From Ascidia mentula (Eukaryota > Chordata > Ascidiacea > Phlebobranchia > Ascidiidae), in assembly GCA_947561715.1 (NCBI GenBank), contig OX387199.1, positions 17,799,001 to 17,863,000 on the forward strand: a DNA stretch of 64,000 nucleotides, read 5' to 3'. Shown piece after piece: positions 1-62,911 of the stretch. The translations under genes were made by a program, and so were the position numbers. Position 1 is the first letter of the stretch; each line of letters begins with the position of its first letter. The notes under the pieces were generated by a model. The model saw only the letters and a program-made list of their open reading frames with translations. It had not been told where the DNA came from and made no database searches.

Positions 1-341
1 TACACAACACGCCTCCTTTGAACGTTTCCTGAATTTCTTTTTTGACGATTTTCAACATCACGGGTGAATCCAACTACATTTTGTAAATTACTAGTTGATT
101 TACCTACAGGAAGCGCTCTATTTCCTATTTCCCTTTTACGACGATTTTCAAAATCACGTTTGAATCCAGATATGGCAGGTAACACTTGAATTTTGGCATT
201 TCTTCTTTGGAGATTCTTTATGTAACCATTAATTCCACCGAGAGGCCCGCGATTTTCTGCATTACTGTCTTCACCATTGGAACATAACCATAATCCACAC
301 GACAACAACACGACTAACGCTATGTTGACTTTGCTTCCCAT
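1..341 (-). CDS. Secreted repeat-peptide precursor, partial at window edge (locus a)
   Basis: The start codon is at 339-341 and the frame stays open to the window edge, so the 3' end is missing. The first residues, MGSKVNIALVVLLSCG, are followed by LWLCSNGED, a hydrophobic leader typical of a signal peptide. The mature part has basic clusters (RR, RRKR, RQKR) separating segments that contain GF motifs such as GFKRDFENRRKR and GFTRDVENRQKR. RxKR is the furin consensus, so I infer a secreted precursor cut into short peptides. The closest relative in the window is the plus-strand gene at 43678, and the upstream flanks of the two are also homologous in inverted orientation. No known peptide family was recognised. 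Confidence 0.75.
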   Translation of the reverse strand, partial: MGSKVNIALVVLLSCGLWLCSNGEDSNAENRGPLGGINGYIKNLQRRNAKIQVLPAISGFKRDFENRRKREIGNRALPVGKSTSNLQNVVGFTRDVENRQKRNSGNVQRRRVV

Positions 342-27382: not shown

Positions 27383-27932
27383 CTAAACAATGGTTTCGAA
27401 ATCATTTAATTTAGTAGGTGGACCTTGACGTAGACGATTTTCCACATTCCCTTTTTGGCGATTTTCCATAATACTGTTTAATTGGCCCCCACTGGAGGCG
27501 TTCCATTTTTCAAATTCGGCGAGATCCAAAATTAATATGCAATCCAACCACAGGAGGATCGTCATTTTCCTCACTTCGTTTTTGGCGATTTTCCATGATA
27601 CTGTCGAATCCAGCCATGGGAGGATCGCCATTTTCCTCACTCCGTTTTTTGCGATTTTTCATGTAACTGTTGAATCCAGCTATGGGAGGTCTGCCATTTT
27701 CCTCACCCCGTTTTTGTCGATTTTGATAATTCTTGTTGAATCCTGGTATAGGTGGGGCGATATCCGCATTCCGCTTCTGACGATTTTTGGCATTACTTAT
27801 GAATCCCGATGGAAGCTTGCTTTTTTCAAACATTTGTCTATTTAATGCACTGCTATCTTCGCCGTTGGAACATAACCACAGTCCACACAACAACAGTAAC
27901 ACGACTAACCCTATGTTGGCTTTGCTTTTCGT
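27383..27932 (-). pseudogene. Secreted repeat-peptide gene, broken (locus b)
   Basis: This is the unit A counterpart of the intact gene at 41261-41749. The leader LLLLCGLWLCSNGEDSSA and repeats such as GFNSYMKNRKKRSEEN and GFDSIMENRQKRSEEN are readable. The start codon has become ACG (27930-27932). A deletion of about 7 bases near 27505 shifts the frame, so the C-terminal part (GQLNSIMENRQKGN, ending LNDFETIV) continues in another frame. Homology to the promoter of the intact copy stops about 30 bases upstream, exactly at the duplication junction at 27964. The copy probably lost its promoter when the tandem duplication formed, and then decayed. Confidence 0.8.
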
Positions 27933-27965
27933 TTTTGTCTACTTTGAGCAAACTTGGAATATCTT

Positions 27966-29590: not shown

Positions 29591-29692
29591 TTTGTACCTG
29601 ATTTATTATTGTTTTTACAACAACCCTACTTTGTGTGGCTGCGTAACAGTCAAACGACCACAAAGCCATTAGGTTGTGGCAGTAAACCAATA

Positions 29693-31639: not shown

Positions 31640-31765
31640 AATAGTTTGTTGCTAAGGCTGCCAGGCATACTTTTTGTAATTAAAAGCTCTTCTGGCAAAA
31701 GAAAAACTTGTTTGTTCGACGTTTCGGTTGTTATACAACAAACCTTCATCAGGATAATGAAGTAA
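31640..31765 (-). mobile_element. Penelope-like element 3' end, second family
   Basis: On the minus strand: CCTGATGAAGGTT, a loop, AACCGAAACGTCG, then TTTGCCAGAAGAGC and ATGCCTGGCAGCC. The same order is found at 63405-63497 next to a GIY-YIG frame, so this is the 3' terminus of that family without its coding part. It occupies the place of the ADF-like gene of unit A. Confidence 0.65.
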
Positions 31766-31842
31766 AAACGCCCACACGGTGATAAATATTCACGCGCGCA
31801 TAAAGCAAAAAAAGGCGAAAGAAACAACACAAGCTAGGAAGC

Positions 31843-31998
31843 GGGGTGGGGGGGGGGGGAACACCAATAATAGAAAATGCGCGTCAACAGGACGAAACCG
31901 AGGTCTAAAGCATAGCGCCTCGAGGTGCGCAAGACCATCACGTTCAACCAGGGGGCATGTCATTTTCTATTATTGGTGTTCCCCCCCCCCCCCTCCCC
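31843..31998. mobile_element. Small element with long terminal inverted repeats
   Basis: The left arm 31843-31879 (GGGGT, a G run, then AACACCAATAATAGAAAATG) is the near-perfect reverse complement of the right arm 31961-31998; only one base and the length of the G/C run differ. The core of about 80 bp has no coding capacity. It resembles a miniature inverted-repeat element or a foldback insertion. No target-site duplication is obvious. It is found only in unit B, directly after the Penelope 3' end. Confidence 0.6.
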
Positions 31999-32482
31999 GA
32001 ATTGCTAACAATCGCAACTGAAATATATTTGCAAAAAATCAACAGAGACGAAAACAACTTTATGCATTTTTTTTAAACCATAATTCCCCTGAAAACCAAT
32101 CTTCAAAAACTCATATGTGTGTATGACAAGGATTTCCAAGCAGCCATGTTTCACAAAACTTTTACTTGCTACTAACGTTGTGTGTAACTACAACAAGGTA
32201 CGAGATATAGGAAATACTGGAAAGACGCAATCGTCACAGTGGATTGAATATTTCTTCAACGCAAACCAACCAATACGACAATTCAATAGTCATACGTTCC
32301 GCAATACAAAGCAAAAAAAAACACATCAGTAAAGCAACTACATAAATTCGAGTGTTTAGGACGCAATATTTCCATAAAATACTGTTTGTGGACAGCAAGT
32401 GGAATTGTTACTCGTCCAAATTCTCTTGAGATTCAACATCAACAAATTAAAATATCCTAAAAATTAAAATCAATCAATTTCC

Positions 32483-35400: not shown

Positions 35401-38400
35401 TTGACGTTTTTATCGTACATGAAAAAACATTTTATTGTACAGTAGAATTAATGCCATGCTTACGCATAGCAAGGCGGAATCGCCCCACTGCGCAGGCCCT
35501 TTATATTTGGCGATCACAGCTCTAATATTCTGATCATGAGGTTCACAGGCTTCGCAGCCAAGGCATTGCAGCCAAGCTGGATCAGCCACTTTTCCCGACA
35601 AGTCGGAGCGAGATCTGAAAAATCAAGCTCCCGGTGAGGTTTGAACTCACGACTTGTCGGGAAAAGTGGCTGATCCAGCTTGGCTGCAATGCCTTGGCTG
35701 CGAAGCCTGTGAACCTCATGATCAGAATATTAGAGCTGTGATCGCCAAATATAAAGGGCCTGCGCAGTGGGGCGATCCCGCCTTGCTATGCGTAAGCATG
35801 GCATTAATTCTGCGTTGTCTGATTACGGTGGTGGAGATCCTCTACGCATGTGAAGGTCGCCTGACAAGTTGTGCGCTTGCGCACCAGTGTACCTTGGCCA
35901 CAATATACCCCGTGAAGCCACTGAGCTCCTGTAGCTCAGTTGGTAGAGCGTTGGGCCTGGTTAGCCCAAGGTCGTGAGTTCAAACCTCACCGGGAGCTTG
36001 ATTTTTCAGATCTCGCTCCGACTTGTCGGGAAAAGTGGCTGATCCAGCTTGGCTGCGAAACCTGTGAACTTCATTATTGTACAGTATTTATGTTGTTAGA
36101 GTTAATATTTATGAGCAATTTGATGCAAGTGAATTGACATACAGGACAAGGAAACATTATTGGGTCATATTCATGCTTGAGAATAAACAGTTTAACCTTT
36201 TTATCTCATCCTGTTCGGCGAGATCCCTTCCGGCAGCTTCTCTCGCATGCTCTCGTGATTGTTCTCTCACAGCATCTAACCTTGCCCCATAGGATTCTTT
36301 GATGCTTTCAATCTCTCGTTCTGATCGTTGTTGGATTTCGACCAGAGAACGTTGAAGTAACTTAATATTAAGTGACACATATTTTATAAACTGGTGCAAA
36401 CACATATTTTCTTTTAATCTAAAATAATATGTAAAAATGCTCGTCCACTACTCGGCCTACATTTGTTTATGCCGTTGCAGCGTTTGTAAAGGTTACATTA
36501 GGTCATTGTCGGTACACGGGTTACTGTAGGTCACCTCCACTCTTCCGTCGTATGCTTGTTGTGTCAGCTCCAAGTCCGACCGAAACCCGAGTTGAGCTTC
36601 ATGCAACAGCCCCCTCAGGTGGTGAAGTTGCGACTCCAGTGATCGGAGTTGGGAGTCGGAGGTGGAAGATGGCGGTTGATGAGGAGAAGGCTTGTTAAAT
36701 CCTGGACGCACATCTGGGAAGTTGTGAGAAAGGTCGTAAATTCAGTGAAGATTTTAATGCGGGAAAGAGTTTTTTTATTTTCTATTATCCGTCGCAAAAA
36801 AATGACTACATGCAACATACTTTTTTAAACGGTAAAACTAAACGCCCGATTGCCAACAGTGGTAATGTCATTAGAATATAACTTACTTCTAGCAAATTAA
36901 TACACAACAACACCGGAAAACAAATCACTTCGGACTCCGTTACTAAATAGAAGATCTTGACGAATTGTTTGGATATTAGACGATTACCAGCGTAATGTTT
37001 TTTTTACCTTCCGTGGTAATGAAGTTCTGTATCGGGAGTCTTTCATTTCGCGGTTGATTAAACACATCATCACGTGACTGTTGGTGCGCAGACACGCGTG
37101 ACGGACGCCTCTGATTAGTCGGTTCGATTTCATCGAGGATGTTCGCCTCGGACACGTGCTGGGGAACTTTGCTGTTGAGAGAAAAAAAGCAAATCCAAAC
37201 GACTTAGATATTTTGCACACAAGACCTGGTGTTTATAATGACCAGAGCAGTGACAAAAATATGTGGAAACACAATCACGAGCTGATCATAATTACAAGTT
37301 GACTAAAGTTACAACTGAAAGTAGCACATCAAATCAACCTTACGACATAACCCTACACATTCACCTGAAAGGTAGTTTAGATGGAGTTGTCGCCACAGGG
37401 GATGATGGGGCAACTAAGGGGGAAGCAATAGGTGATGATCTCACTCTGGGTGGTTTACCCACAGTAGGAGGGGGCTCCGTTGAAGTCACAGAATCATTAT
37501 CATCGCCCTGTGACAAATCATATTTACCAACAATTTATTACTGACGGTCATACTTTGCAACAAACAACACAAGAAAGAACTACAACTTTTAACACACAAA
37601 CATTTTATCGCAGGACAGAAAATCGCAACACACACTTTGAAAGAAGTTTCCAATTTTCTAGGCCTTCTGTTGGAAGGTGTCGAGGTTGGCCTGTAAAAAC
37701 ATATATAGTAAAATCAGGAATATATTTGGGCATTTTTTTTACTTGACAGCTGCGGTTTCTTCATCAGAAAGTGGTGAAATATTGGATTGAAAATAAAATC
37801 ACATAAAAGAGAATACAGTTATTTTGACATTTTGACTGCATGGACAAAATTTATATTAGCAACATAAGTTTAACTACAACACACCTAGGTAGACTCGGTT
37901 TGTCGCTGAGAACTGAATCGAGATCAACTTCATCACCAAGACCCAGAAATTCCATTGATTTTGATCTTTCATTACCAGGCTTTCCTGGTGCTGGGGTTGG
38001 TACTAAAGTTATTATTTTGAAAACAATTTTTATATTAAACTCAAAAATACAAACAAAGTAGATTAGCACAGACCTAGAGAAAATTTCATTACAGGTGTTA
38101 ACAATTTTAACTAGTACCAAAAACAAAAGTGCATGAATGTTTTTTCACAAATTCACCTTTTGGTGTGACAGAACCAGAATCAGCATCAGTCAGAAAATCA
38201 AAGAAACTGTCCGTCTTTCGACTGTACAATAAAAAAAATCATAAAAATTGAATATTTTTATATGTCTTACATCATAAAACAACATACTTTGTGCCTAGAG
38301 GTGGTTTCTGTCTTCTGTCGGATGGTGTGCTAGTGCTGGATGGTTGATATCCACCAAATGACACTTCCTTTGGTTCAACTGGTTTGGGACTGGGTTTGGA

Positions 38401-40140
38401 AAACTGTTGGGCTTGAAATGAGTCTTAAATGACAAAACAACATTAGTATCACAAATAGTTGAAACAATTTTGATTGTAATAAATACAATGCACACAGTTA
38501 AATAATTTGTGTAAAATAATGTGGATATTATCTTGACTAGTTTGCTAAGGAATACCACCTTTCATGAAGTTCCCATCTTTGTCAAACAACGTTTTTCTTG
38601 GTTTTTCCTCCGACTTTTTATTAACAGGTCTGGTGGAAAGCAAGTCGTCCAATCGTGACAGGCTGTCATTCTCTTTACTGTAAGAGAACAAACAACTAAT
38701 ACAAAACAATATCAAGACGCTTTATAAAAAAGACATTTACAAAAAGCACCTTTGTTTTGGTAATTGTTTGTCATCATCTAACCCGAGAGCATCAAACACA
38801 TCGTTGTCATCGTCCTCAAATGCCACATCTTCACTATCAAGTGGCGCCTTAGTTGACACTAGGAAAATAGTTACAGAAGAATGTGATTTATGAAGAGTCT
38901 AATGCAACCAATCACAAACTATCAACCACCAATGCAACTGGATGTGATCCTACACCAGATTCATTCTCTGTAAAAATTACTTTCATAAGGGTATCTGACA
39001 TTATTACCCTAATGGTTCATACTTTTTTATTGTCATAATATTATTAGCTTGTGTGATATATACTTGATATTAATGTAAAAAGATGTGATTTTTTTTTAGG
39101 TGACAGTGCCAACGACAATCACAAACTTGGTTTTGTGCTGGATTTCCCTGCTGGTTTCTTGGTAAATTTATTTTCCTTTTTAACTTTTGGAACTGGCTCG
39201 TTTATTTGAAATGAATCATCATCTGACAAAAGGTCTTTTAGTGGATCATCTAGGTCAAAGTCAAGGTCATCTGCACATATAAGTCAATCAGTCATAAACT
39301 TCAAAATCTTTCCAAACATTATTTTTTACCGTGATCGTGTTTTTTCACATCCTGTACACTGCTGTCATGGAAACTTACTCTTTTCTTTTCACCAAATGAT
39401 GACTTTTTTGTGGAACTTAAAGTTGAATTAAGCTGAAATACATTCATATTTAAATGTATTGCAGACTGAAGTGAATATTTACCACAAAGAGTACAAAAAT
39501 TTGCACTTTTAATTAAACTTAGCAAAAACTTGAAAGTTCTTGCTGAAACCAGTAAACTAGATTAGAAAACTAGTTTCACAAAATTCAATCTCCTAAATAA
39601 TTTTTAGTTGTAACCTTTTGGTTGCTCAGAGTTGTCTTTTCTTTTTGTACTGGCTTTTTTTCACCAAATAACTCTGCATCCAAATCATCCATACCCTACA
39701 AAACAAGAACATGAATTATACATATTCTGCATTTTCGGTAAACACACAACATTGCCCACTTTTAATGATTCAAGAAGAGCTTGTGGATCTGCATCAAACA
39801 TCTCGGATGAGGTTCCATCATCCACACTGTCCTGAAGTGAAAAAAATATTACATTAAAAAGATCATCATTTATTTTGTATTTACAATACAAATGCTCACC
39901 ATGTTTGCACTTTGGTTACAGACTATTTTTTGGTTGTTTCCTTAAATAACCTAAAAATAAAGGCTGGAACAACAACATAATAACAGACTATAAACAGCAA
40001 AATGAAAAAGTATATTTTGCAGAAGCAATTCACACATAGTGCAACATTAGGTTGTTGCAATAATCATTTCTGTAAACTTAGTGCATTTCTTAATCAAATG
40101 CCAGAAATTCTAAAATTACCGGTTGAAGTTTTGTTGACAT
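32483..40140 (-). CDS. FBF1: Fas-binding factor 1 (FBF1)-like ciliary coiled-coil protein, copy B
   Basis: The exon structure is the same as copy A: start exon 40120-40140 (MSTKLQP), SDADPQALLESLK exon at about 39770, then DDLDFDLDDPLKDLLSD, DVFDALGLDDD, a reader-frame exon LSRLDDLLSTRPVNKK that runs on to KTLFDKDGNFMKG, EVSFGGYQPSS, proline-rich exons, and coiled-coil exons including 33450-33815 and 36200-36360. The last exon ends before the stop at 32483-32485. FBF1 sits on transition fibres at the ciliary base and is needed for cilium assembly; that is family knowledge. The exons I followed are open, so B looks like the working copy. The second exon (about 39895-39950) has a stop in every frame and may not be an exon. 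A 629-bp SINE cluster sits in an intron. Confidence 0.7.
35445..36073 (+). mobile_element. Nested and inverted tRNA-SINE cluster
   Basis: The insertion is flanked by 13-bp direct repeats TTATTGTACAGTA at 35432-35444 and 36074-36086. Unit A has a single copy of that 13-mer at 20096-20108, an empty site. Inside are an inverted SINE body (35445 to about 35650), a forward body (about 35648-35830), and a forward copy with a full tRNA head (35925-36060) that breaks off early in the body. The head-to-head junction at about 35645-35655 shares CGAC. The frames reading SGKVADPAWLQCLGCEACEP on both strands are SINE sequence, not genes. Confidence 0.8.
35925..35997 (+). tRNA. tRNA-like head of the SINE (73 nt), anticodon unclear
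   Basis: It has a complete cloverleaf shape: acceptor GCTCCTG/CGGGAGC, D arm TAGCTCAGTTGGTAGAGC (A box), and T arm GTGAG/CTCAC with GAGTTCAAACC (B box). The anticodon arm closes as TTGGGC/GCCCAA around CTGGTTA, which would give GGT (Thr), but this needs one extra base pair. It continues directly into the SINE body, so it is the polymerase III promoter of the SINE rather than a working tRNA gene. Confidence 0.5.
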
Positions 40141-41260
40141 TCGTTTTGCTTCACTTGCGTTGCGATTGTCACGCTTCAGAATTTTTTTAAGCGATTGTTT
40201 CTACATGACTTTTTTTTTTAAATCCGACTTAGTCAACAATTTTTAGAAATATTTACCAAAGTGCGCCGCTTCAATACCTTGTTTTCGCGCTAAATTTAAA
40301 ACTGTTCAACCAATTTGACAAATATGTAATTGAAACGATCGCAACTGCTATGTTATTAAGTGGTGAAGATGCACCAGTATGAATGAAATGTTGACAGGAT
40401 AACTAATTCAGCACCATATGTAATTACGTTCCCCATATGTAATTATGTTAGGGTGTCATATATATGCCGTGCGTTGCAACGCGCATTGAGGTCATGGTCA
40501 AATGCACATAATAGCCGTCGAAAATAATTTCCTAAAATATACATTCTGAGTTTGAGGCCAACTTAGCTGGAAGTAACCAATCGAAACTTTGCATTCTCAT
40601 ACGATCCATTGTAATTCCCAATTACATTACAATCAATTGATACTCAACGTCATAATTTGATAAAGTTTGACAAAATTCTTTCGTCGACATTCAACATAAT
40701 ATCATATAGCCGGTTTTTGTTAATGTCTCAACACAAAATATTTCAAAGTATTGTTTTGCGCATAAAAAATAAAGCCGTTGGCGACTGTTTACAGATTTGT
40801 TTCAAAAATTTGAGTAGAAATTTCTTGTTTAAGGATGGAAAGTTTCGCTTGGTTGATTTCAGATAAGTGGGTCACTTAGCCTTTAAGTTGCTTTTTGCAA
40901 ACATGGAGGCGTGTTGTAATGGTGATTGCTGACTTGGATTTGACCGCGCAGTACTTTTGGCAGCACCGCATATTTACGTTTATATCACATAAATTTATGT
41001 TATCAATCCCTATATCTCTAGGAATGGAACTTTTGAAATCGTTGTAAAGCGTGGCTTATTATCGAAAAACTACACAATTTCCGCCTGAATTTAATAAAAC
41101 ACATCATTGTTTTGGGGTTTAGATGTGTATTAATATATAACACAACGAATATTTACAAACCAGTTGATAAAAGCACAGATTCAAAAAAGCAACTCAACAA
41201 TAAAACAATTAATGACACGATGTCAATATCCATGCTTTGTTCTTATACAATTTTCCTTTT

Positions 41261-41749
41261 CTAAACAATGGTTTTAAAATCATTGAATCCAGAAGGTGGA
41301 CGTGGACGATAAATTTCCACATTCCTTTTTTGGCGATTTTCCATAATACTGTTTAATTTGCTCCCAGCTGAAGGCGTTCCATTTTTCAAATTCCTTCTGC
41401 GACGAGACCCTAAATTAATATTAAATCCAGCGACAGGAGGTTTGGCATTTTCCTCACTCCGTTTTCGGAGAATTTTCATATAACTGTTGAATCCAGCAAT
41501 GGGAGGAAACGCTTTTTCTAAATTCCTCTTCTGACGATTAAGAATATTAATATTAATTCCTGGTGGAGGTGGGACGAGTTTCGCATTCCGTTTCTGGCGA
41601 GTTTTGACATTAGTAGTAAATCCTGTTGGAGGTTTGTTTTTTTCAAACATTTGTCTATTTACTGCACTGCTATCTTCGCCATTGGAGCATAACCACAGTC
41701 CACACAGCAATAGTAACACGACTAATCCTTTGTTGGCTTTGATTTTCAT
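41261..41749 (-). CDS. Secreted repeat-peptide precursor (locus c)
   Basis: An intact frame of 162 residues starting at 41747-41749. The leader MKIKANKGLVVLLLLCGL continues to WLCSNGEDSS, a signal peptide with cleavage probably after SNG. The mature part is split by basic sites RQKR, LRKR and RRRR into five or six segments with GF or PG motifs (GFTTNVKTRQKR, PGININILNRQKR, GFNSYMKILRKR), ending LNSIMENRQKRN and FNDFKTIV. The segments have diverged from one another, unlike the homogenised arrays further right. The likely product is several secreted peptides released by furin-type cleavage; this is an inference from the sites. A conserved block at 41941-42005 lies upstream. Confidence 0.75.
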   Translation of the reverse strand: MKIKANKGLVVLLLLCGLWLCSNGEDSSAVNRQMFEKNKPPTGFTTNVKTRQKRNAKLVPPPPGININILNRQKRNLEKAFPPIAGFNSYMKILRKRSEENAKPPVAGFNINLGSRRRRNLKNGTPSAGSKLNSIMENRQKRNVEIYRPRPPSGFNDFKTIV

Positions 41750-43677: not shown

Positions 43678-44985
43678 ATGGGAAGCAAAGCCAACATAGC
43701 GTTAGTCGTGTTGTTGTTGTTTGGATTATGGTTATGTTCCAATGGTGAAGACAGTAATGCAGAAAATCGCGGTCCTCCCGGTGGAATTAATGGTTACATA
43801 AAGAATCGCCAGGGAAGGGATGTCAAAAATCAAATGTTACCTCCCATATCTGGATTCAAACTTAATTTTGAAAATCGTCGTAAAAGGGATATGGAGAATA
43901 GAGCGTCTCCTGAAGGTAAATTAACCAGAAATTTACAAAATGTAGTTGGATTTACCCGTGATGTTGAAAGTCGTCAAAAGAGGAATTCAGGAAACGTTTT
44001 ACCACCTCGTGGATTCACCAGTGATGCTGTAAATTTCCTAAAAAGAATGAAAAGACCACGTCCTCCACCATCTGGATTCATCAGTGATGTCGAAAATCGT
44101 CAAAAGAGGAATTCAGAAAACGCTCTACCACCCCCTGGATTCACCAGTGATGTTGAAAATCGTCAAAAGAGGAATTTAGGAAACCTTCCACCACCTCCTG
44201 GATTCACCAGTGATGTTGAAAATCGTCAAAAGAGGAATTTAGGAAACCTTTCACCACCTCCTGGATTCATCAGTGATGTTGAAAATCGTCAAAAGAGGAA
44301 TTTAGGAAGCCTTCCACCACCTCCTGGATTCATCAGTGATGTTGAAAATCGTCAAAAGAGGAATTTAGGAAACGCTCCACCACCTCCTGGATTCACCAGT
44401 GATGTTGAAAATCGTCAAAAGAGGAATTTAGGAAACGTTCCACCACCTCCTGGATTCATCAGTGATGTTGAAAATCGTCAAAAGAGGAATTTAGGAAACG
44501 CTCCACCACCTCCTGGATTCACCAGTGATGTTGAAAATCGTCAAAAGAGGAATTTAGGAAACGTTCTACCACCTCCTGGATTCATCAGTGATGTTGAAAA
44601 TCGTCAAAAGAGGAATTTAGGAAACCTTCCACCACTTCCTGGATTCACCAGTGATGTTGAAAATCGTCAAAAGAGGAATTTAGGAAACGTTCCACCACCT
44701 CCTGGATTCATCAGTGATGTTGAAAATCGTCAAAAGAGGAATTTAGGAAACCTTCCACCACCTCCTGGATTCACCAGTGATGTTGAAAATCGTCAAAAGA
44801 GGAATTTAGGAAACCTTCCACCACCTCCTGGATTCACCAGTGATGTTGAAAATCGTCAAAAGAGGAATTTAGGAAACCTTCCACCACCTCCTGGATTCAC
44901 CAGTGATGTTGAAAATCGTCAAAAGAGGAATTTAGGAAACGCTCCACCACCTCCTGGATTCACCAGTGATGTTGAAAATCGTTAA
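43678..44985 (+). CDS. Secreted precursor with 21-residue repeats, ending at an early stop (locus d)
   Basis: It starts MGSKANIALVVLLLFGL and WLCSNGEDSN, a signal peptide. Four or five diverged segments come first (GGINGYIKNRQGR, GFKLNFENRRKR, GFTRDVESRQKR). About 14 near-identical 63-bp units follow, each reading NLGN, a proline run PPPPGF, T or I, SDVENRQKR. The RQKR at each end is a furin-type site, so about 20-residue proline-containing peptides could be released. The stop TAA at 44983-44985 replaces the CAA of RQKR. Beyond it the same frame continues through one more repeat (GFGHYMQNRQKR) to a natural-looking TGA at 45076-45078. So the stop is a recent nonsense change that removes only the tail. 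The function of the peptides is unknown. Confidence 0.8.
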   Translation: MGSKANIALVVLLLFGLWLCSNGEDSNAENRGPPGGINGYIKNRQGRDVKNQMLPPISGFKLNFENRRKRDMENRASPEGKLTRNLQNVVGFTRDVESRQKRNSGNVLPPRGFTSDAVNFLKRMKRPRPPPSGFISDVENRQKRNSENALPPPGFTSDVENRQKRNLGNLPPPPGFTSDVENRQKRNLGNLSPPPGFISDVENRQKRNLGSLPPPPGFISDVENRQKRNLGNAPPPPGFTSDVENRQKRNLGNVPPPPGFISDVENRQKRNLGNAPPPPGFTSDVENRQKRNLGNVLPPPGFISDVENRQKRNLGNLPPLPGFTSDVENRQKRNLGNVPPPPGFISDVENRQKRNLGNLPPPPGFTSDVENRQKRNLGNLPPPPGFTSDVENRQKRNLGNLPPPPGFTSDVENRQKRNLGNAPPPPGFTSDVENR

Positions 44986-47694: not shown

Positions 47695-48801
47695 TTATCC
47701 GTATATCCCATTAATATATATATATTCCGACACGGAAAAATTTTTGACAGATGGGGCATTTTCTTTACTCCGTTTTTGGCGATTTTCCATGTAACTGTTG
47801 AATCCACCAATGGGAGGTCTGGCATTTTCTTTACTCCGTTTTTGGCGATTTTCCATGTAACTGTTGAATCCAACATTGGCAGGTGGGGCATTTTCTTTAC
47901 TTCGTTTTTGGCGATTTTCCATGTAACTGTTGAATCCACTAATGGGAGGTCTGGCATTTTCTTTACTCCGTTTTTGGCGATTTTCCATGTTACTGTTGAA
48001 TCCACCAATGGGAGGTCTGGCATTTTCTTTACTCCGTTTTTGGCGATTTTCCATGTAACTGTTGAATCCACCAATGGGAGGTCTGGCATTTTCTTTACTC
48101 CGTTTTTGGCGATTTTCCATGTAACTGTTGAATCCAACATTGGCAGATGGGGCATTTTCTTTACTTCGTTTTTGGCGATTTTCCATGTAACTGTTGAATC
48201 CACCAATGGGAGGTCTGGCATTTTCTTTACTCCGTTTTTGGCGATTTTCCATGTAACTGTTGAATCCAACGTTGGCAGGTGGGGCATTTTCTTTACTTCG
48301 TTTTTGGAGATTTTCCATGTAACTGTTGAATCCACCAATGGGAGGTCTGGCATTTTCTTTACTCCGTTTTTGGCGATTTTCCATGTAACTGTTGAATCCA
48401 ACGTTGGCAGGTGGGGCATTTTCTTTACTTCGTTTTTGGCGATTTTCCATGATACTGTCGAATCCAGCCATGGGAGGAGCGGCATTTTCTTTACTTCGTT
48501 TTTGGCGATTTTCCATGTAACTGTTGAATCCACTAATGGGAGGTCTGGCATTTTCTTTACTCCGTTTTTGGCGATTTTCCATGTAACTGTTGAATCCAAC
48601 ATTGGCAGGTGGGGCATTTTCTTTACTCCGTTCTAGGCGATTTTTCGTGTAACTGTTGAATCCAGACATGAATCCCTCTGGTGGTATAATTTTTTCAAAC
48701 ATTTTGCTATTTACTGCATTACTGTTTTCGCCGTTGGAACATAACCACAATTCACACAACAACAGTAACACAACTAAACCTTTGTTGGCTTTGCTTTCCA
48801 T
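47695..48801 (-). CDS. Secreted precursor with 13 repeats of a 22-residue unit (locus e)
   Basis: The frame has 368 residues: a 58-residue head (MESKANKGLVVLLLLCEL, WLCSNGEN, up to NRLER), 13 units of 22 residues, and a 24-residue tail ending SVSEYIYINGIYG. Units begin SKEN, carry PPANV or RPPIGG/RPPISG, then GFNSYMEN, and end RQKR. One unit has FDSIMEN, one lacks the furin arginine (MENLQKR), and one has NSNMEN. RQKR fits furin-type cleavage of a secreted precursor. The head and tail match gene g almost perfectly, so e and g are recent duplicates with different array lengths. It is paired head-to-head with gene f. No known peptide family was recognised. Confidence 0.85.
   Translation of the reverse strand: MESKANKGLVVLLLLCELWLCSNGENSNAVNSKMFEKIIPPEGFMSGFNSYTKNRLERSKENAPPANVGFNSYMENRQKRSKENARPPISGFNSYMENRQKRSKENAAPPMAGFDSIMENRQKRSKENAPPANVGFNSYMENRQKRSKENARPPIGGFNSYMENLQKRSKENAPPANVGFNSYMENRQKRSKENARPPIGGFNSYMENRQKRSKENAPSANVGFNSYMENRQKRSKENARPPIGGFNSYMENRQKRSKENARPPIGGFNSNMENRQKRSKENARPPISGFNSYMENRQKRSKENAPPANVGFNSYMENRQKRSKENARPPIGGFNSYMENRQKRSKENAPSVKNFSVSEYIYINGIYG
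47770..48627 (-). repeat. 66-bp coding minisatellite, 13 units
   Basis: It is exactly 858 bp, or 13 times 66 bp, inside gene e. Units are more varied than those of the 70-unit array at 53215. Confidence 0.9.
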
Positions 48802-51101: not shown

Positions 51102-51479
51102 ATGGGAAGCAAAGCCAACATAGCGATGGTCGTGTTGTTGTTGTGTGGATTGTGGTTGTGTTTCAATGGCGAAAACCGTAATGCAGAAAATCGCAAGCCT
51201 CCAGTTGGATTTATTACTAATGCCAAAAATCATCAGAAGATGATTCTTTCCATTGCTGGATTCAACGGTTATATGAAAAATCGACAAAAACGGAATGAGG
51301 AAAATTTTGCACCCCTCGTGGGCGGATTTAACAGTAATTTTGCATATCGACGGAGAAGGAATTTGAAAAATAAAATTCCTCCAGCAGAAGGCAGATTGAA
51401 AAGTGGTATTCAAAATCGCCAAAAAAGGAGTCTGGAAAATCCTCGACCTCGATATCCACCTGCTGGATTTAATAATTGA
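51102..51479 (+). CDS. Short secreted repeat-peptide precursor (locus f)
   Basis: The frame of 125 residues starts at the ATG at 51102-51104, chosen because the leader MGSKANIAMVVLLLCGL and WLCFNGEN matches the family; a longer in-frame extension upstream is not conserved in the family. The mature part has GFITNAKNHQK, GFNGYMKNRQKRNEEN, GGFNSNFAYRRRRNLK and SGIQNRQKRSLEN, ending PPAGFNN. The basic sites RQKR and RRRR would release three or four different peptides. It is transcribed away from gene e. A CRE-like block lies upstream. A broken duplicate is at 60208. Confidence 0.75.
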   Translation: MGSKANIAMVVLLLCGLWLCFNGENRNAENRKPPVGFITNAKNHQKMILSIAGFNGYMKNRQKRNEENFAPLVGGFNSNFAYRRRRNLKNKIPPAEGRLKSGIQNRQKRSLENPRPRYPPAGFNN

Positions 51480-53139
51480 AAAAGATTTCGCAGTAAATAT
51501 CTTGTGGAAAAGAAAGCATTCCCTCGATTACGCCGTTAATTCTTCCTAAAAAAAATCATTGAATCTTAGCGTTTTCTTGTGGTATTCTACATTTGCAAGG
51601 AAAATTTTCTCGCAATTTTTGCACATGGTTCGTTATTGTAAATGACAGCGACAAAAAAAAAATACAAGAAACGTGATAATTTATCGTGTGGAGGTAAAGG
51701 ACAGTAACAACCAAAAAATATTTTCTTTATAAAGCTCGTCAAGTTTGATGACAAGGCGGCACAGATTGTTGCGTTTTCAAATGAATGGAAATGTAAATTT
51801 GAAATTTGCGGTAAAACAGGTATAGCAGCAGGTCACGGATATGTCGGGAGGATAACGAGTGCAAATGTGGGTTTTAACGCACCAGTAGCCCCACAGCCGA
51901 ACATGGTGCAGACAAGTAGTTTTTTTTGCAGCTAATTTGTGTTATTGCAGTGAGCAACATTTATCCCAACTTTACTGAAAACAAATTTGTACGTTACGTA
52001 ACATATGTACAGAGCTGCTCACCGATGCGAAACATCTAGTAAGGATGATCAGCTCGCGTTCAGGTCACGGTCGACTGCCAACGTGAGCTGACAAACCCAA
52101 AAATGCGCCTTGCTAAGTCAATGCCAAGTGAGCAACCGCAAAATTACTTCGCAACCATAAAGTACTAAGCCACAGACATATCGGCGCCAGTATGAGATAG
52201 CTTCTGACTTTTATGTCTACCCAAGAAAAGCATTAAATTTTAACGTTTTTTTTTAGAAATAGTTCTCCTTCGCAACACTTTTTTGGGGGTGTCGACATAA
52301 TTATGTACTTCCCAAATTAACAGATCTAAAAATATGGACAAATGAAATTATACATGAAATGCTAACATGCTGTTGTATTATTGTTGCTGTAATGCACTTT
52401 CAACGTAAAAGCATACAACCTGCTTTTGTTAATGACAAAAGATACACAATAGTACAATATAATATATCACATATCATTAAAAAGCCGTTGGCCATTACGA
52501 CGACAGTTTACAAATAAACTTTGTTTCAAAAGTTTGGGCAGAAATTCCTCGTCTAAGGATGCAAAGTTTCGCTTGGTTGATTTCAGAAGAGCGGGTCACT
52601 TAGCCTTTAAGTTGCTTTTTGCATACATGGAGGATGTTGTAATTGTGGTTGTTGACTTGGATTTGACTGCATAGTACTTTTAGCAGCACGGCACTTTTTG
52701 TTTGTGTGCAAACATCTGTAGTCGTGCATTGTCCATGACCTTAACAAAGTGCCCAACCCACTCTCACATTTTTTCTGTGGACGCTCGCTGTTGCGGATTG
52801 TTTCATAATATTATGTTGATCACATTTTCAAAACGTTTTTGTGTTATTTATTGATTATTAATGTAAACTTGTAAAATCATTGATAATAATCAACAGAATA
52901 CAAATTATATATGTAAACCAAGATATACAACTCCCATTTGCAAATCAGATGATAAAAGTAATTTTTCAGTTTGTAAAAGCAATTAACACAACTATTAAAC
53001 TATAACTGTAACAACTTCTATACAAGGATACGACGCCAATACCCGAATCAACTTCTATACAAGGATACTGAAACAAATCTAATATTGACCAAAAGATTCA
53101 ACGAAATAATTGCAAAAACAAACAATTGTTCTCAAAAAA

Positions 53140-56100
53140 TTATCCGTATATCCCATTAAAATATATATATTCCGACACGGAAAAAATTTTGACAGATGGG
53201 GCATTTTCTTTACTCCGTTTTTGGCGATTTTCCATGTAACTGTTGAATCCAGTAATGGGAGGTTTGGCATTTTCTTTACTCCGTTTTTGGCGATTTTCCA
53301 TGTAACTGTTGAATCCAACATTGGCAGGTGGGGCATTTTCTTTACTCCGTTTTTGGCGATTTTCCATGTAACTGTTGAATCCAACATTGGCAGGTGGGGC
53401 ATTTTCTTTACTTCGTTTTTGGCGATTTTCCATGTAACTGTTGAATCCAACATTGGCAGGTGGGGCATTTTCTTTACTTCGTTTTTGGCGATTTTCCATG
53501 TAACTGTTGAATCCACCAATGGGAGGTCTGGCATTTTCTTTACTCCGTTTTTGGCGATTTTCCATGTAACTGTTGAATCCAACATTGGCAGGTGGGGCAT
53601 TTTCTTTACTTCGTTTTTGGCGATTTTCCATGTAACTGTTGAATCCACCAATGGGAGGTCTGGCATTTTCTTTACTCCGTTTTTGGCGATTTTCCATGTA
53701 ACTGTTGAATCCAACATTGGCAGGTGGGGCATTTTCTTTACTTCGTTTTTGGCGATTTTCCATGTAACTGTTGAATCCAACATTGGCAGGTGGGGCATTT
53801 TCTTTACTCCGTTCTTGGCGATATTCCATGTAACTGTTGAATCCACCAATGGGAGGTCTGGCATTTTCTTTACTCCGTTTTTGGCGATTTTCCATGTAAC
53901 TGTTGAATCCACCAATGGGAGGTCTGGCATTTTCTTTACTCCGTTTTTGGCGATTTTCCATGTAACTGTTGAATCCAACATTGGCAGGTGGGGCATTTTC
54001 TTTACTCCGTTTTTGGCGATTTTCCATGTAACTGTTGAATCCAACATTGGCAGGTGGGGCATTTTCTTTACTTCGTTTTTGGCGATTTTCCATGTAACTG
54101 TTGAATCCACCAATGGGAGGTCTGGCATTTTCTTTACTCCGTTTTTGGCGATTTTCCATGTAACTGTTGAATCCAACATTGGCAGGTGGGGCATTTTCTT
54201 TACTTCGTTTTTGGCGATTTTCCATGTAACTGTTGAATCCAACATTGGCAGGTGGGGCATTTTCTTTACTTCGTTTTTGGCGATTTTCCATGTAACTGTT
54301 GAATCCACCAATGGGAGGTCTGGCATTTTCTTTACTCCGTTTTTGGCGATTTTCCATGTAACTGTTGAATCCAACATTGGCAGGTGGGGCATTTTCTTTA
54401 CTCCGTTTTTGGCGATTTTCCATGTAACTGTTGAATCCAACAATGGGAGGTGGGGCATTTTCTTTACTCCGTTTTTGGCGATTTTCCATGTAACTGTTGA
54501 ATCCAACATTGGCAGGTGGGGCATTTTCTTTACTCCGTTTTTGGCGATTTTCCATGTAACTGTTGAATCCAACATTGGCAGGTGGGGCATTTTCTTTACT
54601 TCGTTTTTGGCGATTTTCCATGTAACTGTTGAATCCACCAATGGGAGGTGGGGCATTTTCTTTACTCCGTTTTTGGCGATTTTCCATGTAACTGTTGAAT
54701 CCAACATTGGCAGGTGGGGCATTTTCTTTACTTCGTTTTTGGCGATTTTCCATGTAACTGTTGAATCCAACATTGGCAGGTGGGGCATTTTCTTTACTTC
54801 GTTTTTGGCGATTTTCCATGTAACTGTTGAATCCACCAATGGGAGGTCTGGCATTTTCTTTACTCCGTTTTTGGCGATTTTCCATGTAACTGTTGAATCC
54901 ACCAATGGGAGGTCTGGCATTTTCTTTACTCCGTTTTTGGCGATTTTCCATGTAACTGTTGAATCCAACATTGGCAGGTGGGGCATTTTCTTTACTCCGT
55001 TTTTGGCGATTTTCCATGTAACTGTTGAATCCAACATTGGCAGGTGGGGCATTTTCTTTACTTCGTTTTTGGCGATTTTCCATGTAACTGTTGAATCCAA
55101 CATTGGCAGGTGGGGCATTTTCTTTACTTCGTTTTTGGCGATTTTCCATGTAACTGTTGAATCCACCAATGGGAGGTCTGGCATTTTCTTTACTCCGTTT
55201 TTGGCGATTTTCCATGTAACTGTTGAATCCAACATTGGCAGGTGGGGCATTTTCTTTACTCCGTTTTTGGCGATTTTCCATGTAACTGTTGAATCCAACA
55301 TTGGCAGGTGGGGCATTTTCTTTACTTCGTTTTTGGCGATTTTCCATGTAACTGTTGAATCCAACATTGGCAGGTGGGGCATTTTCTTTACTTCGTTTTT
55401 GGCGATTTTCCATGTAACTGTTGAATCCAACATTGGCAGGTGGGGCATTTTCTTTACTTCGTTTTTGGCGATTTTCCATGTAACTGTTGAATCCAACATT
55501 GGCAGGTGGGGCATTTTCTTTACTTCGTTTTTGGCGATTTTCCATGTAACTGTTGAATCCAACATTGGCAGGTGGGGCATTTTCTTTACTTCGTTTTTGG
55601 CGATTTTCCATGTAACTGTTGAATCCAACATTGGCAGGTGGGGCATTTTCTTTACTTCGTTTTTGGCGATTTTCCATGTAACTGTTGAATCCACCAATGG
55701 GAGGTCTGGCATTTTCTTTACTTCGTTTTTGGCGATTTTCCATGTAACTGTTGAATCCACCAATGGGAGGTCTGGCATTTTCTTTACTCCGTTTTTGGCG
55801 ATTTTCCATGTAACTGTTGAATCCAACATTGGCAGGTGGGGCATTTTCTTTACTCCGTTTTTGGCGATTTTCCATGTAACTGTTGAATCCAACATTGGCA
55901 GGTGGGGCATTTTCTTTACTTCGTTTTTGGCGATTTTCCATGTAACTGTTGAATCCACCAATGGGAGGTCTGGCATTTTCTTTACTCCGTTTTTGGCGAT
56001 TTTCCATGTAACTGTTGAATCCAACATTGGCAGGTGGGGCATTTTCTTTACTCCGTTTTTGGCGATTTTCCATGAAACTGTTGAATCCACCAATGGGAGG

Positions 56101-58008
56101 TGGAGCATTTTCTTTACTCCGTTTTTGGCGATTTTCCATGTAACTGTTGAATCCAACATTGGCAGGTGGGGCATTTTCTTTACTCCGTTTTTGGCGATTT
56201 TCCATGTAACTGTTGAATCCAACATTGGCAGGTGGGGCATTTTCTTTACTTCGTTTTTGGCGATTTTCCATGTAACTGTTGAATCCAACATTGGCAGGTG
56301 GGGCATTTTCTTTACTTCGTTTTTGGCGATTTTCCATGTAACTGTTGAATCCAACATTGGCAGGTGGGGCATTTTCTTTACTTCGTTTTTGGCGATTTTC
56401 CATGTAACTGTTGAATCCAACATTGGCAGGTGGGGCATTTTCTTTACTTCGTTTTTGGCGATTTTCCATGTAACTGTTGAATCCACCAATGGGAGGTCTG
56501 GCATTTTCTTTACTCCGTTTTTGGCGATTTTCCATGTAACTGTTGAATCCAACATTGGCAGGTGGGGCATTTTCTTTACTTCGTTTTTGGCGATTTTCCA
56601 TGTAACTGTTGAATCCAACATTGGCAGGTGGGGCATTTTCTTTACTTCGTTTTTGGCGATTTTCCATGTAACTGTTGAATCCAACGTTGGCAGGTGGGGC
56701 ATTTTCTTTACTTCGTTTTTGGCGATTTTCCATGTAACTGTTGAATCCACCAATGGGAGGTCTGGCATTTTCTTTACTCCGTTTTTGGCGATTTTCCATG
56801 TAACTGTTGAATCCAACATTGGCAGGTGGGGCATTTTCTTTACTTCGTTTTTGGCGATTTTCCATGTAACTGTTGAATCCAACATTGGCAGGTGGGGCAT
56901 TTTCTTTACTTCGTTTTTGGCGATTTTCCATGTAACTGTTGAATCCACCAATGGGAGGTCTGGCATTTTCTTTACTTCGTTTTTGGCGATTTTCCATGTA
57001 ACTGTTGAATCCAACATTGGCAGGTGGGGCATTTTCTTTACTTCGTTTTTGGCGATTTTCCATGTAACTGTTGAATCCACCAATGGGAGGTCTGGCATTT
57101 TCTTTACTCCGTTTTTGGCGATTTTCCATGTAACTGTTGAATCCAACATTGGCAGGTGGGGCATTTTCTTTACTTCGTTTTTGGCGATTTTCCATGTAAC
57201 TGTTGAATCCAACATTGGCAGGTGGGGCATTTTCTTTACTTCGTTTTTGGCGATTTTCCATGTAACTGTTGAATCCAACGTTGGCAGGTGGGGCATTTTC
57301 TTTACTTCGTTTTTGGCGATTTTCCATGTAACTGTTGAATCCACCAATGGGAGGTCTGGCATTTTCTTTACTCCGTTTTTGGCGATTTTCCATGTAACTG
57401 TTGAATCCAACATTGGCAGGTGGGGCATTTTCTTTACTTCGTTTTTGGCGATTTTCCATGTAACTGTTGAATCCACCAATGGGAGGTCTGGCATTTTCTT
57501 TACTCCGTTTTTGGCGATTTTCCATGTAACTGTTGAATCCACCAATGGGAGGTCTGGCATTTTCTTTACTCCGTTTTTGGCGATTTTCCATGTAACTGTT
57601 GAATCCAACATTGGCAGGTGGGGCATTTTCTTTACTCCGTTTTTGGCGATTTTCCATGTAACTGTTGAATCCACCAATGGGAGGTGGGGCATTTTCTTTA
57701 CTCCGTTTTTGGCGATTTTCCATGTAACTGTTGAATCCAACATTGGCAGGTGGGGCATTTTCTTTACTTCGTTTTTGGCGATTTTCCATGTAACTGTTGA
57801 ATCCAACATTGGCAGGTGGGGCATTTTCTTTACTCCGTTCTAGGCGATTTTTCGTGTAACTGTTGAATCCAGACATGAATCCCTCTGGTGGTAAAATTTT
57901 TTCAAACATTTTGCTATTTACTGCATTACTGTTTTCGCCGTTGGAACATAACCACAATTCACACAACAACAGTAACACAACTAAACCTTTGTTGGCTTTG
58001 CTTTCCAT
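53140..58008 (-). CDS. Giant secreted precursor with 70 repeats of a 22-residue unit (locus g)
   Basis: The frame has 1622 residues: a 58-residue head with signal peptide (MESKANKGLVVLLLLCEL, WLCSNGEN), exactly 70 units of 22 residues, and a 24-residue tail ending SVSEYIYFNGIYG. Each unit begins SKEN, has a variable core, then GFNSYMEN and RQKR. By my count 46 units have APPANV, 19 have ARPPIGG, three are APPPIGG hybrids, and one each has PPPIVG and KPPITG. Only unit 61 loses the site consensus (MEYRQER). Furin-type cleavage after RQKR would give up to 70 nearly identical peptides of about 20 residues. The leader, head-to-head partner and tail are shared with gene e. The role could be a neuropeptide, an antimicrobial or a structural secretion; the sequence does not decide this. 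Confidence 0.85.
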   Translation of the reverse strand: MESKANKGLVVLLLLCELWLCSNGENSNAVNSKMFEKILPPEGFMSGFNSYTKNRLERSKENAPPANVGFNSYMENRQKRSKENAPPANVGFNSYMENRQKRSKENAPPPIGGFNSYMENRQKRSKENAPPANVGFNSYMENRQKRSKENARPPIGGFNSYMENRQKRSKENARPPIGGFNSYMENRQKRSKENAPPANVGFNSYMENRQKRSKENARPPIGGFNSYMENRQKRSKENAPPANVGFNSYMENRQKRSKENAPPANVGFNSYMENRQKRSKENAPPANVGFNSYMENRQKRSKENARPPIGGFNSYMENRQKRSKENAPPANVGFNSYMENRQKRSKENARPPIGGFNSYMENRQKRSKENAPPANVGFNSYMENRQKRSKENAPPANVGFNSYMENRQKRSKENARPPIGGFNSYMENRQKRSKENAPPANVGFNSYMENRQKRSKENAPPANVGFNSYMENRQKRSKENAPPANVGFNSYMENRQKRSKENARPPIGGFNSYMENRQKRSKENAPPANVGFNSYMENRQKRSKENAPPANVGFNSYMENRQKRSKENAPPANVGFNSYMENRQKRSKENAPPANVGFNSYMENRQKRSKENAPPANVGFNSYMENRQKRSKENAPPPIGGFNSFMENRQKRSKENAPPANVGFNSYMENRQKRSKENARPPIGGFNSYMENRQKRSKENAPPANVGFNSYMENRQKRSKENAPPANVGFNSYMENRQKRSKENARPPIGGFNSYMENRQKRSKENARPPIGGFNSYMENRQKRSKENAPPANVGFNSYMENRQKRSKENAPPANVGFNSYMENRQKRSKENAPPANVGFNSYMENRQKRSKENAPPANVGFNSYMENRQKRSKENAPPANVGFNSYMENRQKRSKENAPPANVGFNSYMENRQKRSKENAPPANVGFNSYMENRQKRSKENARPPIGGFNSYMENRQKRSKENAPPANVGFNSYMENRQKRSKENAPPANVGFNSYMENRQKRSKENAPPANVGFNSYMENRQKRSKENARPPIGGFNSYMENRQKRSKENARPPIGGFNSYMENRQKRSKENAPPANVGFNSYMENRQKRSKENAPPANVGFNSYMENRQKRSKENAPPPIGGFNSYMENRQKRSKENAPPANVGFNSYMENRQKRSKENAPPANVGFNSYMENRQKRSKENAPPPIVGFNSYMENRQKRSKENAPPANVGFNSYMENRQKRSKENARPPIGGFNSYMENRQKRSKENAPPANVGFNSYMENRQKRSKENAPPANVGFNSYMENRQKRSKENARPPIGGFNSYMENRQKRSKENAPPANVGFNSYMENRQKRSKENAPPANVGFNSYMENRQKRSKENARPPIGGFNSYMENRQKRSKENARPPIGGFNSYMEYRQERSKENAPPANVGFNSYMENRQKRSKENAPPANVGFNSYMENRQKRSKENARPPIGGFNSYMENRQKRSKENAPPANVGFNSYMENRQKRSKENARPPIGGFNSYMENRQKRSKENAPPANVGFNSYMENRQKRSKENAPPANVGFNSYMENRQKRSKENAPPANVGFNSYMENRQKRSKENAKPPITGFNSYMENRQKRSKENAPSVKIFSVSEYIYFNGIYG
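53215..57834 (-). repeat. 66-bp coding minisatellite, 70 units
   Basis: It is 4620 bp, or 70 times 66 bp, with no frame-changing indel. Units fall mainly into two classes that differ in the 20-bp variable core and often in the preceding Arg codon (CGG or CGA). Runs of the same class, up to seven long, alternate with mixed stretches. Confidence 0.95.
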
Positions 58009-60207
58009 TTTTGTCTACTTTAAGGAAAAATTCTAAATCTGAAACGAACACTAATAACCGCGATAGGCGCGATAACCCCTCGGTATCTCATCTGTGGAGA
58101 GAAATGCACACAAGGTTCCAAGCTTGTGTGCAACAACAATATTTCATTGAAGTTCTATCCCAGTCACGGTGCCTTCATCGCTGTGCTTTACAACGCACAT
58201 TAAGGTCATGGTCAAATAAACATAATAGCTGACAAACCCTACTTCCTAAAAACTACATTCAGACTTTGAGCTCAACTTATCTGGAAGCAACCAAGCGAAA
58301 CTTCGTATTTCCTCTCTTATTTACCTGTGAACCACCAGTGCACCATCCCTGTTGGATTAAGTCGAGAAGAACAGGAATAACAAGTTTCCTCCTGTGCAAG
58401 TCGTCGAGGGGTATTTGATTTTCTGCCCAGTTTTCCTACATCGTAATCAAACACTATTTTATTGATCTGGATCAACCAAGCGAAACTTTGTATTCTTTTT
58501 CAATCAGCATTGTGCAAAACCCTAATAAAACCACTGTGTGAAGAAAACAACACACCACACAATTAAAAGAAGGCTTCCACACAAGCAACGTCAGGTCTTT
58601 ATGTTGTTTTTACAGATGATAATTCAAGTTAATTATCGTTAGAATTAATAGACAAAATCATGAACATGAACGCATGTCAAAGTCAGGATCAACGAAAAAG
58701 ATCCAGCAATCAGTCAAAACAGGGATAGCAGCAGGTCACGTGTGTGTTGGGAGAAAAGCGTGTGCAAAAGTGGGATTTAACGCACCACTGGGCCGCGGCA
58801 GAATATGGTACCGACAATTGCGAATTTAATTTTTGCAGCGAATGTGTGTTAGATCTTAGAATTTAGAAACATCAAGTTAATTCTTCTTAACAGTACTAAA
58901 AGATTTTTTATTGTTTAATGAAATTGAGTAATATTTATCCCCATGTACCTCATAACAAATTTGTACAGTATCTAACATATGTGCAGAGATGCTTATCGTT
59001 GTGAAACAGAAAATAATGATGATTTGATTACGGAAATTGATTTACTTCCATTAACGGTACATTGTACAGTTGAGACAAAACAGTTTAACAAAACAGCTCT
59101 AAAATTGCCTATATTGCAAATATTTTAGGCAACTCAGCATTTGAATGAAATTTATTTTTGTAAATTTTGTGGGATGGTTTTACTCTTTTTTTAGTCTTGA
59201 AGAATAGTTTTTTTTTTGTGGCCCCATTCAGCTCGCGTTCTGGTCACGGTCGACTGCCAATGTGAGCGGGCAATCCTTAAAATGTGGTGTCAAGCACTGC
59301 TAGGTTAACGCCTAGTCAGCAACAACAAAATATCTTCGCCAACACGAAGTACTTTGTGACGGACCAATCGGTGTCAGTATAAATGATCTAAGATAGCTAC
59401 TAAGTTTTAGTTCTACCCAAGAATAGCATTGAATCTTGGCATTTGTTTATCCACAACAATTTCTCCCAAAATTTGTGATGTCGATGTATTTATGTATTTA
59501 TCTAAACAGATCTCGCACTGCAACATATTCAAGTAATTTGTATCATTCGGGTACACCAAAGTTAAAGAGAAACATGTCGTTTCCTATAGAAATATTATTT
59601 ACATGATCACAAATGAAAAAGTCTTCTGACAACAACTGTGTTATTTTATTTTTTGTAAGCTTTTTTATTTCGCAGGAAATGTTTTATGCAAGTTTTTCCC
59701 AAAGTTCGTTATCGTGAATGACAGTGACGAAAAAATACAAGAAACATGATAATTTACTGTGTGGCGGTATAGGACGGTATTAACCGAAATATATTTGTTT
59801 ATAAAACTCGACAAGTTTGACGACAAGACGGCAGAGATTGTGTCGATTTGGGATGAATGGATAAATCTATATAAAATTTCAGGTACTTTAACTTAGAACA
59901 TAGCATAGAACATCTATTAACATGCAGCAACAAAGTAACTAGCTTCAAGAAACAACTTCGGGGATATTAGTCATGTAGGCGTAACCTCTTGAAATCGTGG
60001 GGTTGTCGCGCCGCTCGCAGTTTTTAGTTTTGGTTTCAGATGAAGAATTTTATGGTTTTTGTATTTGATCTGGCAGTCGGATAATTATGTTCAATATTCA
60101 ATGTTTAGCTTGTTTTTTTTTACTGATTGCGTCGTTCACTCAGGACAAAAACTGACGATATCAGGCACATTCCCAGCAATATTTTTGTGCTTACTCAAAG
60201 CAGACAA
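58009..60207. other. Spacer between head-to-head genes g and h
   Basis: Near-identical to 48802-51101 apart from small changes and the missing stretch of about 100 bases near 59980 that holds the CRE-like block in unit 1. No gene was recognised. Confidence 0.5.
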
Positions 60208-60560
60208 ATGGGAAGCAAAGCCAACATAGCGATGGTCGTGTTGTTGTTGTGTGGATTGTGGTTGTGTTTCAATGGCGAAAACAGTAATGCAGAAAATCGC
60301 AAGCCTCCAGTTGGATTTATTACTAATGCCAAAAATCATCAGAAGATGATTCTTTCCATTGCTGGATTCAACGGTTATATGAAAAATCGATGAAAACGGA
60401 ATGAGGAAAATTTTGCACCCCTCGTGGGCGGATTTAACAGTAATTTTGCATATCGACGGAGAAGGAATTTGAAAAGTAAAATTCCTCCAGCAGAAGGCAC
60501 CAAAAAAGGAGTCTGGAAAATCCTTGACGTCGATCTCCACCTGCTGGATTTAATAATTGA
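60208..60560 (+). pseudogene. Short secreted repeat-peptide gene, broken (locus h)
   Basis: Duplicate of gene f. The leader and first segments are intact (MGSKANIAMVVLLLCGL, GFNGYMKNR). The CAA of the first RQKR-type site is TGA at 60391-60393, ending the protein after 61 residues. Further on, a deletion of about 25 bases at about 60500 shifts the frame of the last repeat. The upstream CRE-like block present in f is also missing. A secreted 61-residue peptide could still be made, but loss of function is more likely. Confidence 0.8.
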
Positions 60561-62419: not shown

Positions 62420-62911
62420 AATCCAACAGCAGGTCGAATATTTAATTTCCAACATTCCTTTTCTCACGATTCTGCATGTAGTATTTAAATCCAGGTAATC
62501 CTGCTGGTGGAAGTTTTCCTGAATTCCTCTTTTGGCGATTTTCAATATCACTGGTGAATTTACCTGGATTTTGTGTATTACTGATAAATTTACCTATCAT
62601 TTTCTAAATTCCTGGTGAATTGATGTAGTTTTTATTACTGATGAATTTAACTACATTTTGTAAATTAATGGTGACCTGGTGGAGGCAATCCGTTTTCCAA
62701 TTCCCTTCTTCGACGATTTTCAAAATTTCTTTTGAATCCAGATAAGGAAGGAAAGATTTGATTTTTGGCATTCCTTCTCTGGAGATTTTGTGAAAGCTTG
62801 ACATCCAAGTGGAGACCTGCGATTTTCTGCATTCCTCTTTTCAACATTGGAACATAACCACAATCCACACAACAACAACACGACTGGAGCTTTGTTGACT
62901 TTGCTCCCCAT
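62420..62911 (-). pseudogene. Secreted repeat-peptide gene, broken (locus i)
   Basis: It starts at 62909-62911 with the leader MGSKVNKAPVVLLLCGLWLC. After about residue 37 the family sequence continues in other frames: LQRRNAKNQ and GFKRNFENRRRRELEN (62665-62800), then a segment like KFTSDIENRQKRNSG (about 62520-62570), and a final FKYYMQNREKRN. At least two frameshifts and a stop separate the pieces. It is closest to loci a and d in segment order, and its 5' flank (CCTGTTCA, TTTGC) resembles theirs. It is a decayed family member. Confidence 0.75.

Follow-up and report, generated by a model that had tools for sequence, protein, structure and literature searches.

A 70-unit tandem-repeat gene of the ascidian Ascidia mentula as a candidate secreted multi-copy propeptide

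A gene that repeats one short unit 70 times may be a peptide precursor whose products are used, or a repeat that merely happens to stay open, and the locus studied here raises the question of which it is. It lies in a 64,000-nucleotide stretch of the Ascidia mentula genome (hereafter the window; contig C52), where positions 53140-58008 of the minus strand form a single open frame of 1622 residues. The first-pass annotation had read this frame as a secreted precursor made up of a head of 58 residues, an array of 1540 (70 x 22) and a tail of 24, with no frame-changing indel, and this division proves correct to the residue, the stop codon following the tail. TRF gives a period of 66 bases, 71 copies, 0% indels and a score of 8254 for the array, which is far beyond chance. 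The elements of the gene are, in positions of the window:

57937..58008, minus strand: putative signal peptide of about 24 residues (MESKANKGLVVLLLLCELWLCSNG)
57835..57936, minus strand: spacer, residues 25-58, with RLER at its end
53215..57834, minus strand: array of exactly 70 x 22 residues, with RQKR at 69 of the 70 unit ends
53140..53214, minus strand: tail of 24 residues and stop codon
52847..52852, minus strand: candidate polyadenylation signal AATAAA, the sole AATAAA on that strand in 52600-53140
58039..58040, minus strand: candidate cis- or trans-splice acceptor, an AG behind TTCGTTTC, 30 bases before the ATG and also present in the 13-unit neighbour described below

The array is composed of 46 units SKENAPPANVGFNSYMENRQKR, 18 units SKENARPPIGGFNSYMENRQKR and six rarer forms. 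Near-universal RQKR ends had been claimed and are indeed found, the one exception being RQER, and in the 69 RQKR units a furin-type R-X-K/R-R stands ahead of the predicted cut. The signal peptide that had been proposed is supported by the hydrophobic core read from the sequence and by the likeness among eight aligned heads, this one included. The frame thus presents the sequence features of a multi-copy secreted propeptide, namely a signal-peptide-like head and tandem copies between putative convertase sites, and the layout of a secreted precursor with furin-consensus boundaries is supported by this reading. A glycine for amidation before the dibasic site is absent, its place being taken by Gln in all 69 RQKR units.

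We consider it probable that the gene belongs to a family of ascidian multi-copy propeptides which are secreted, are cut at RQKR by furin-type convertases and release unamidated peptides of about 20 residues. The precursor would enter the secretory pathway by way of its signal-peptide-like head, furin or a related convertase would cut after each RQKR, and a carboxypeptidase would trim KR to leave peptides ending in ENRQ. A single molecule could in this way yield as many as 70 hydrophilic peptides without amidation, some 20 residues long (SKENAPPANVGFNSYMENRQ, with a calculated average mass of about 2253.4, and SKENARPPIGGFNSYMENRQ, with one of about 2295.5), and array length would then set the peptide dose.

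Does the intact array itself prove that the product is used? It had been argued that a frame and a cleavage site kept over 70 units speak for use, and this argument turned out to be weak. Since 66 is a multiple of three, two further frames are also open across the array (1581 residues on the minus strand and 1577 on the plus strand), and with three frames open, openness by itself is no evidence of coding. The 70 units comprise just 11 distinct DNA sequences; hence the array is young and does not amount to 70 independent tests of selection. Moreover, only 9 of the 198 possible single-base changes in the consensus unit create a stop, which together with the 11 DNA types implies so few independent changes that an intact frame is unsurprising even without selection. 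The array shows no sign of purifying selection, as 9 of its 12 variable positions alter the residue. The comparison with the 13-unit neighbour likewise revealed no significant constraint on the head relative to the flanks, the head differing at 1 of 174 bases and the flanks by 1.6% (binomial 0.23, Fisher p 0.52). A control for expansion without coding exists within the genome: at C52:16339545-16342999, the first part of a related array is in frame, further on the frame is lost, and the array nevertheless continued to expand, with 48 unit-like copies, all frames together, before the sequence examined ends. Arrays of this family expand regardless of coding, and frame retention was dropped as proof of use.

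Within the window, tblastn with the head of the 70-unit gene found the following members:

47695..48801, minus strand: 13-unit neighbour, with head of 58 residues, 13 x 22 residues and tail of 24; RQKR in 12 of 13 units and LQKR in one; flanks 1.6% different from those of the 70-unit gene
43678..44985, plus strand: relative (W43) of mostly 21-residue units (NLGNLPPPPGFTSDVENRQKR), with a stop codon at 44983 and unit-like sequence continuing past it
41261..41749, minus strand: relative (W41) of 162 residues with diverged units
51102..51479, plus strand: relative (W51) of 125 residues with diverged units
27510..27929, minus strand: relative (W27) that lacks the ATG at its usual position and is probably decaying
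60208..60468, plus strand: copy of W51 (W60) carrying an in-frame TGA, probably a pseudogene
3..341, minus strand: short relative (W0) at the left edge of the window
62683..62911, minus strand: head of a relative (W62) plus remnants

In the genome as searched (195.8 Mb in 79 contigs), at least 48 places have a related head, and stops are present in some of these. Heads of the type of the 70-unit gene account for 14 of these. At least 33 further places, counted by hand among the matches listed, lie in C52:16.17-16.55 Mb, match from residue 1 or 2 of a second type of head, and belong to what we call the D type or D cluster, of whose units DSDMVGPPPGFNDNAENRQKR is an example. The third type has 26-residue units (SLEHHSDLQDLPGGRFNGNVENRQKR) that end in RFNGNVENRQKR or similar, and begins at C52:17874434; 23 full units fall within the 655 residues fetched, which are free of stops to the end of the fetched stretch, and the open frame measures 753. 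The largest relative, at C67:7459626-7474670, comprises 226 units of 22 residues in one stop-free frame of 5014 residues, so that 70, which had been described as an extreme copy number, is far exceeded within the family itself. All 226 of its units end in KR, and 75 of them carry Cys instead of Arg at P4; the full furin consensus is hence not always kept. In this gene a run of 62 units recurs identically 61 units further on, and runs of identical units are seen at lags of 61 and 54; the 62-unit run shows that it grew by duplication of large blocks. Altogether, the sequences show that genes of this family grow, shrink, duplicate and decay fast. As a separate observation, matches in C52:16.2275-16.2422 Mb and 16.4329-16.4475 Mb are spaced 205,392 bases apart for three genes and 205,413 for one, and may go back to recent duplication of the segment or to its duplication in the assembly.

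The diverged relatives provide better evidence of use than the 70-unit array, in the form of dN/dS ratios, codon positions and a kept scaffold, and we rate this evidence as good, though short of final. Seven pairs of relatives were compared, which share members, are not independent and include decaying copies (W27 enters three pairs, W60 one), and in which the aligned repeats may be non-orthologous or misaligned. In six of them, dN/dS amounts to 0.26, 0.33, 0.38, 0.49, 0.56 and 0.59; the seventh pair, which includes a copy with a stop, stands at 1.06. Of six pairs put to Fisher tests, with the pair W51-W60 left out, five gave p values between 5.9e-10 and 0.02 and the sixth gave 0.16. Over the last 14 codons, compared among 15 of 16 genes (W51 yielded no units), mean differences are 3.64 at codon position 1, 3.13 at position 2 and 5.03 at position 3, and the third position differs most in 89 of the 105 gene pairs. 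The frame is also kept in units of 21, 22 and 26 residues alike. In the D cluster, the ten stretches fetched gave 142 units of 21-22 residues, for which KR, the residue behind it and the length served as the only delimiters (one 20-residue unit out of 143 was excluded). Of these units, 140 keep the F, 140 the G, 139 the first P, 139 the Arg at P4, 136 the N and 134 the Gln at P3. Arg at P4, which belongs to the cutting site, therefore is among the best-kept parts of the unit, and a PPxGF...RQKR scaffold is kept around variable residues without being imposed by the rule by which units were cut.

With this in mind, the alternatives can be weighed. A coding minisatellite without present use, arisen by unequal exchange in a dispensable gene copy with a 66-base period helping to hold the frame open, would account for the three open frames, the youth of the array, the continued expansion of the frame-broken relative and the pseudogene-like appearance of some neighbours. 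We nevertheless judge it rather improbable, since the diverged relatives are constrained in this very frame and the 226-unit relative runs through its entire length without a stop. A repetitive protein that is secreted and serves, uncut and with RQKR as mere repeat sequence, as a structural or matrix component of tunic, egg coat or mucus appears about equally improbable: the long, hydrophilic repeat and the side-by-side arrays of widely differing length would suit such a protein, but a basic site that is among the best-kept parts of the repeat would be unexpected if the chain were never cut. Proline-rich antimicrobial peptides are cationic. An array of defence peptides of this kind, in keeping with proline-containing, convertase-bounded units in multiple copies and with the many gene copies, is very unlikely here, as the net charge computed for six trimmed peptides ranges from +0.5 to -3.5 and only the untrimmed 22-mer would reach +1.5; the antimicrobial identity was rejected on charge.

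If the propeptide is indeed processed, two settings come into question. A signal peptide and many copies between dibasic sites are the standard look of precursors of neuropeptides or hormones, which neurons or endocrine cells would secrete and whose kept PPxGF...EN core would engage a receptor, and the core of the unit is kept while its flanks vary. Against this reading, which we hold to be unlikely, stand the missing amidation glycine before the cut site, the presence of at least 48 fast-changing copies, in our judgement unlike a receptor-bound hormone, and the failure to find any of 11 unit strings in the literature searched. Gene number, rapid turnover, the missing amidation and the uniform context of the sites lead us to prefer bulk secretion from a non-neural tissue such as a gland, epithelium, blood cell or gonad, which we put forward tentatively and think likelier than a classical neuropeptide role.

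A more far-reaching and improbable idea is that the family constitutes a genome-encoded combinatorial library of peptides, i.e. a secreted repertoire, distributed across some 48 genes and remnants of genes with as many as 226 units apiece, that would differ between individuals and serve, for example, as a signal of identity, mating or defence. It draws on two hypervariable residues that flank PP in the scaffold xPPxGF...N...RQKR and form 29 residue pairs among 67 distinct 21-residue units of the D cluster, with values of 2.7 and 2.9 bits as compared to 0.1-0.2 at the P, P, G and F next to them. Positive selection at these sites was considered, and the figures looked promising at first, with pN of 0.57 and 0.73 there and pS of 0.17 over the whole unit (42 distinct units from 7 of 9 D genes). 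The count test showed no significant nonsynonymous excess at the two sites (25:7 versus 65:24, Fisher p 0.64) and thus no support for diversifying selection; in this test the unit pattern imposed PP, GF, R and KR and some 22-residue units were recounted in a shifted register, and the constancy values given above were not taken from that pattern.

No relative of the family turned up in the collections compared. Searches of 5.8 billion proteins, a set that may lack tunicates, returned no relative of the 70-unit gene, of the 13-unit neighbour or of a seven-member alignment (7999, 8000 and 6813 candidates scored). Alignment A1 did not include the relative L034. The PDB, queried with the 13-unit neighbour, and phage records, queried with W27, yielded no relative either. 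None of the 11 unit strings occurred in the literature searched, and a keyword search of the literature brought up nothing on the family; that the peptide had looked unfamiliar at first reading agrees with the comparison, within the limits of a protein set that may lack tunicates. A match of the 70-unit gene to Calcitonin/CGRP/IAPP (PF00214) scored 34.1 over the whole protein, above the cut-off of 22.3, but 0 stretches pass; five scanned relatives have no PF00214 match and the candidate was dropped. In the Pfam scan, the 70-unit gene, the 13-unit neighbour and the 26-residue type each matched a different family, 0 stretches passing in any of them, and three more relatives matched none; of two further members in a separate scan, one gave such a non-passing match and the other none. 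These matches look like artefacts, and we read the calcitonin score as inflated by the repeat.

The closest precedent in form is Lom-SG-SASP of Locusta migratoria, described in the available part of PMC5533153 as a neuropeptide-like gene with a signal peptide and several 20-residue copies between Lys-Arg sites, positive by RT-PCR in the salivary gland only and with no orthologue identified in any other arthropod. Both have a signal peptide, copies of about 20 residues between basic sites and the build of a neuropeptide-like gene, whereas the sequences look unrelated by eye and the locust case, as far as that excerpt goes, is a single described gene with several copies. Cnidarian RFamide precursors resemble the family in carrying many near-identical peptides per precursor. 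They encode amidated neuropeptides, and the 36 copies of Antho-RFamide in the precursor of Renilla koellikeri are the highest number noted in the review material seen (PMC7266959), as compared to 70 in the present gene and 226 in the relative on C67; we do not claim either number as a published record. Among ascidian peptides, which include 23 imaged neuropeptides of Ciona (PMC12441681), the Ciona hemocyte peptide CiEMa antigen, CNERKGAEPQFPPEM-amide, as given in part of PMC10888236, bears no resemblance to the units.

Should these peptides be produced, an invertebrate chordate would possess single genes that release 70 or 226 copies per precursor, more than the 36 of the portion of PMC7266959 cited above, from a family of at least 48 genes or remnants without a relative in the collections searched. 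The family would then also offer a direct system for studying copy-number change in coding arrays (13 versus 70 units at 1.6% divergence), the survival of a frame and its cutting sites under such turnover, and the role of a large, variable secreted repertoire in an animal closely related to vertebrates.

Several observations concern the genomic setting. A 16-base sequence given as the spliced leader of C. intestinalis in the available text of PMC7986045 occurs 2157 times in the genome (1091 + 1066), and its reversed control 0 times. At C1:15239666-15297871 the leader 16-mers stand in blocks, 719-720 bases apart among the matches listed, pointing to arrays of leader genes. On contig C79, COX1 read with table 13 (ascidian) aligns without gaps over 445 residues with mammalian COX1, and its 16 AGR codons fall on glycine in 13 cases, alanine in two and glutamine in one; AGR would be serine in tables 5, 9 and 14 and arginine in table 4, and table 2 leaves no frame of more than 300 residues. 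The mitochondrial code and the leader both mark the host as an ascidian. Within the window, positions 10406-24165 and 27964-40184 form a large segmental duplication with pieces 84-97% identical. Paired frames of about 360 residues are duplicated at 11012-12094 and 28517-29602, only the latter being weakly pannexin/LRRC8-like (E 0.002, below the cut-off), and similar frames lie at 13057-13605 and 30611-31156, the first GIY-YIG-like (E 0.0011, below the cut-off) and perhaps part of a retroelement. Frames at 6508-7593 may represent exons that encode a receptor of the rhodopsin type (7tm_1 match below the cut-off, E 0.005), and a tRNA-Thr gene is located at 35924-35999.
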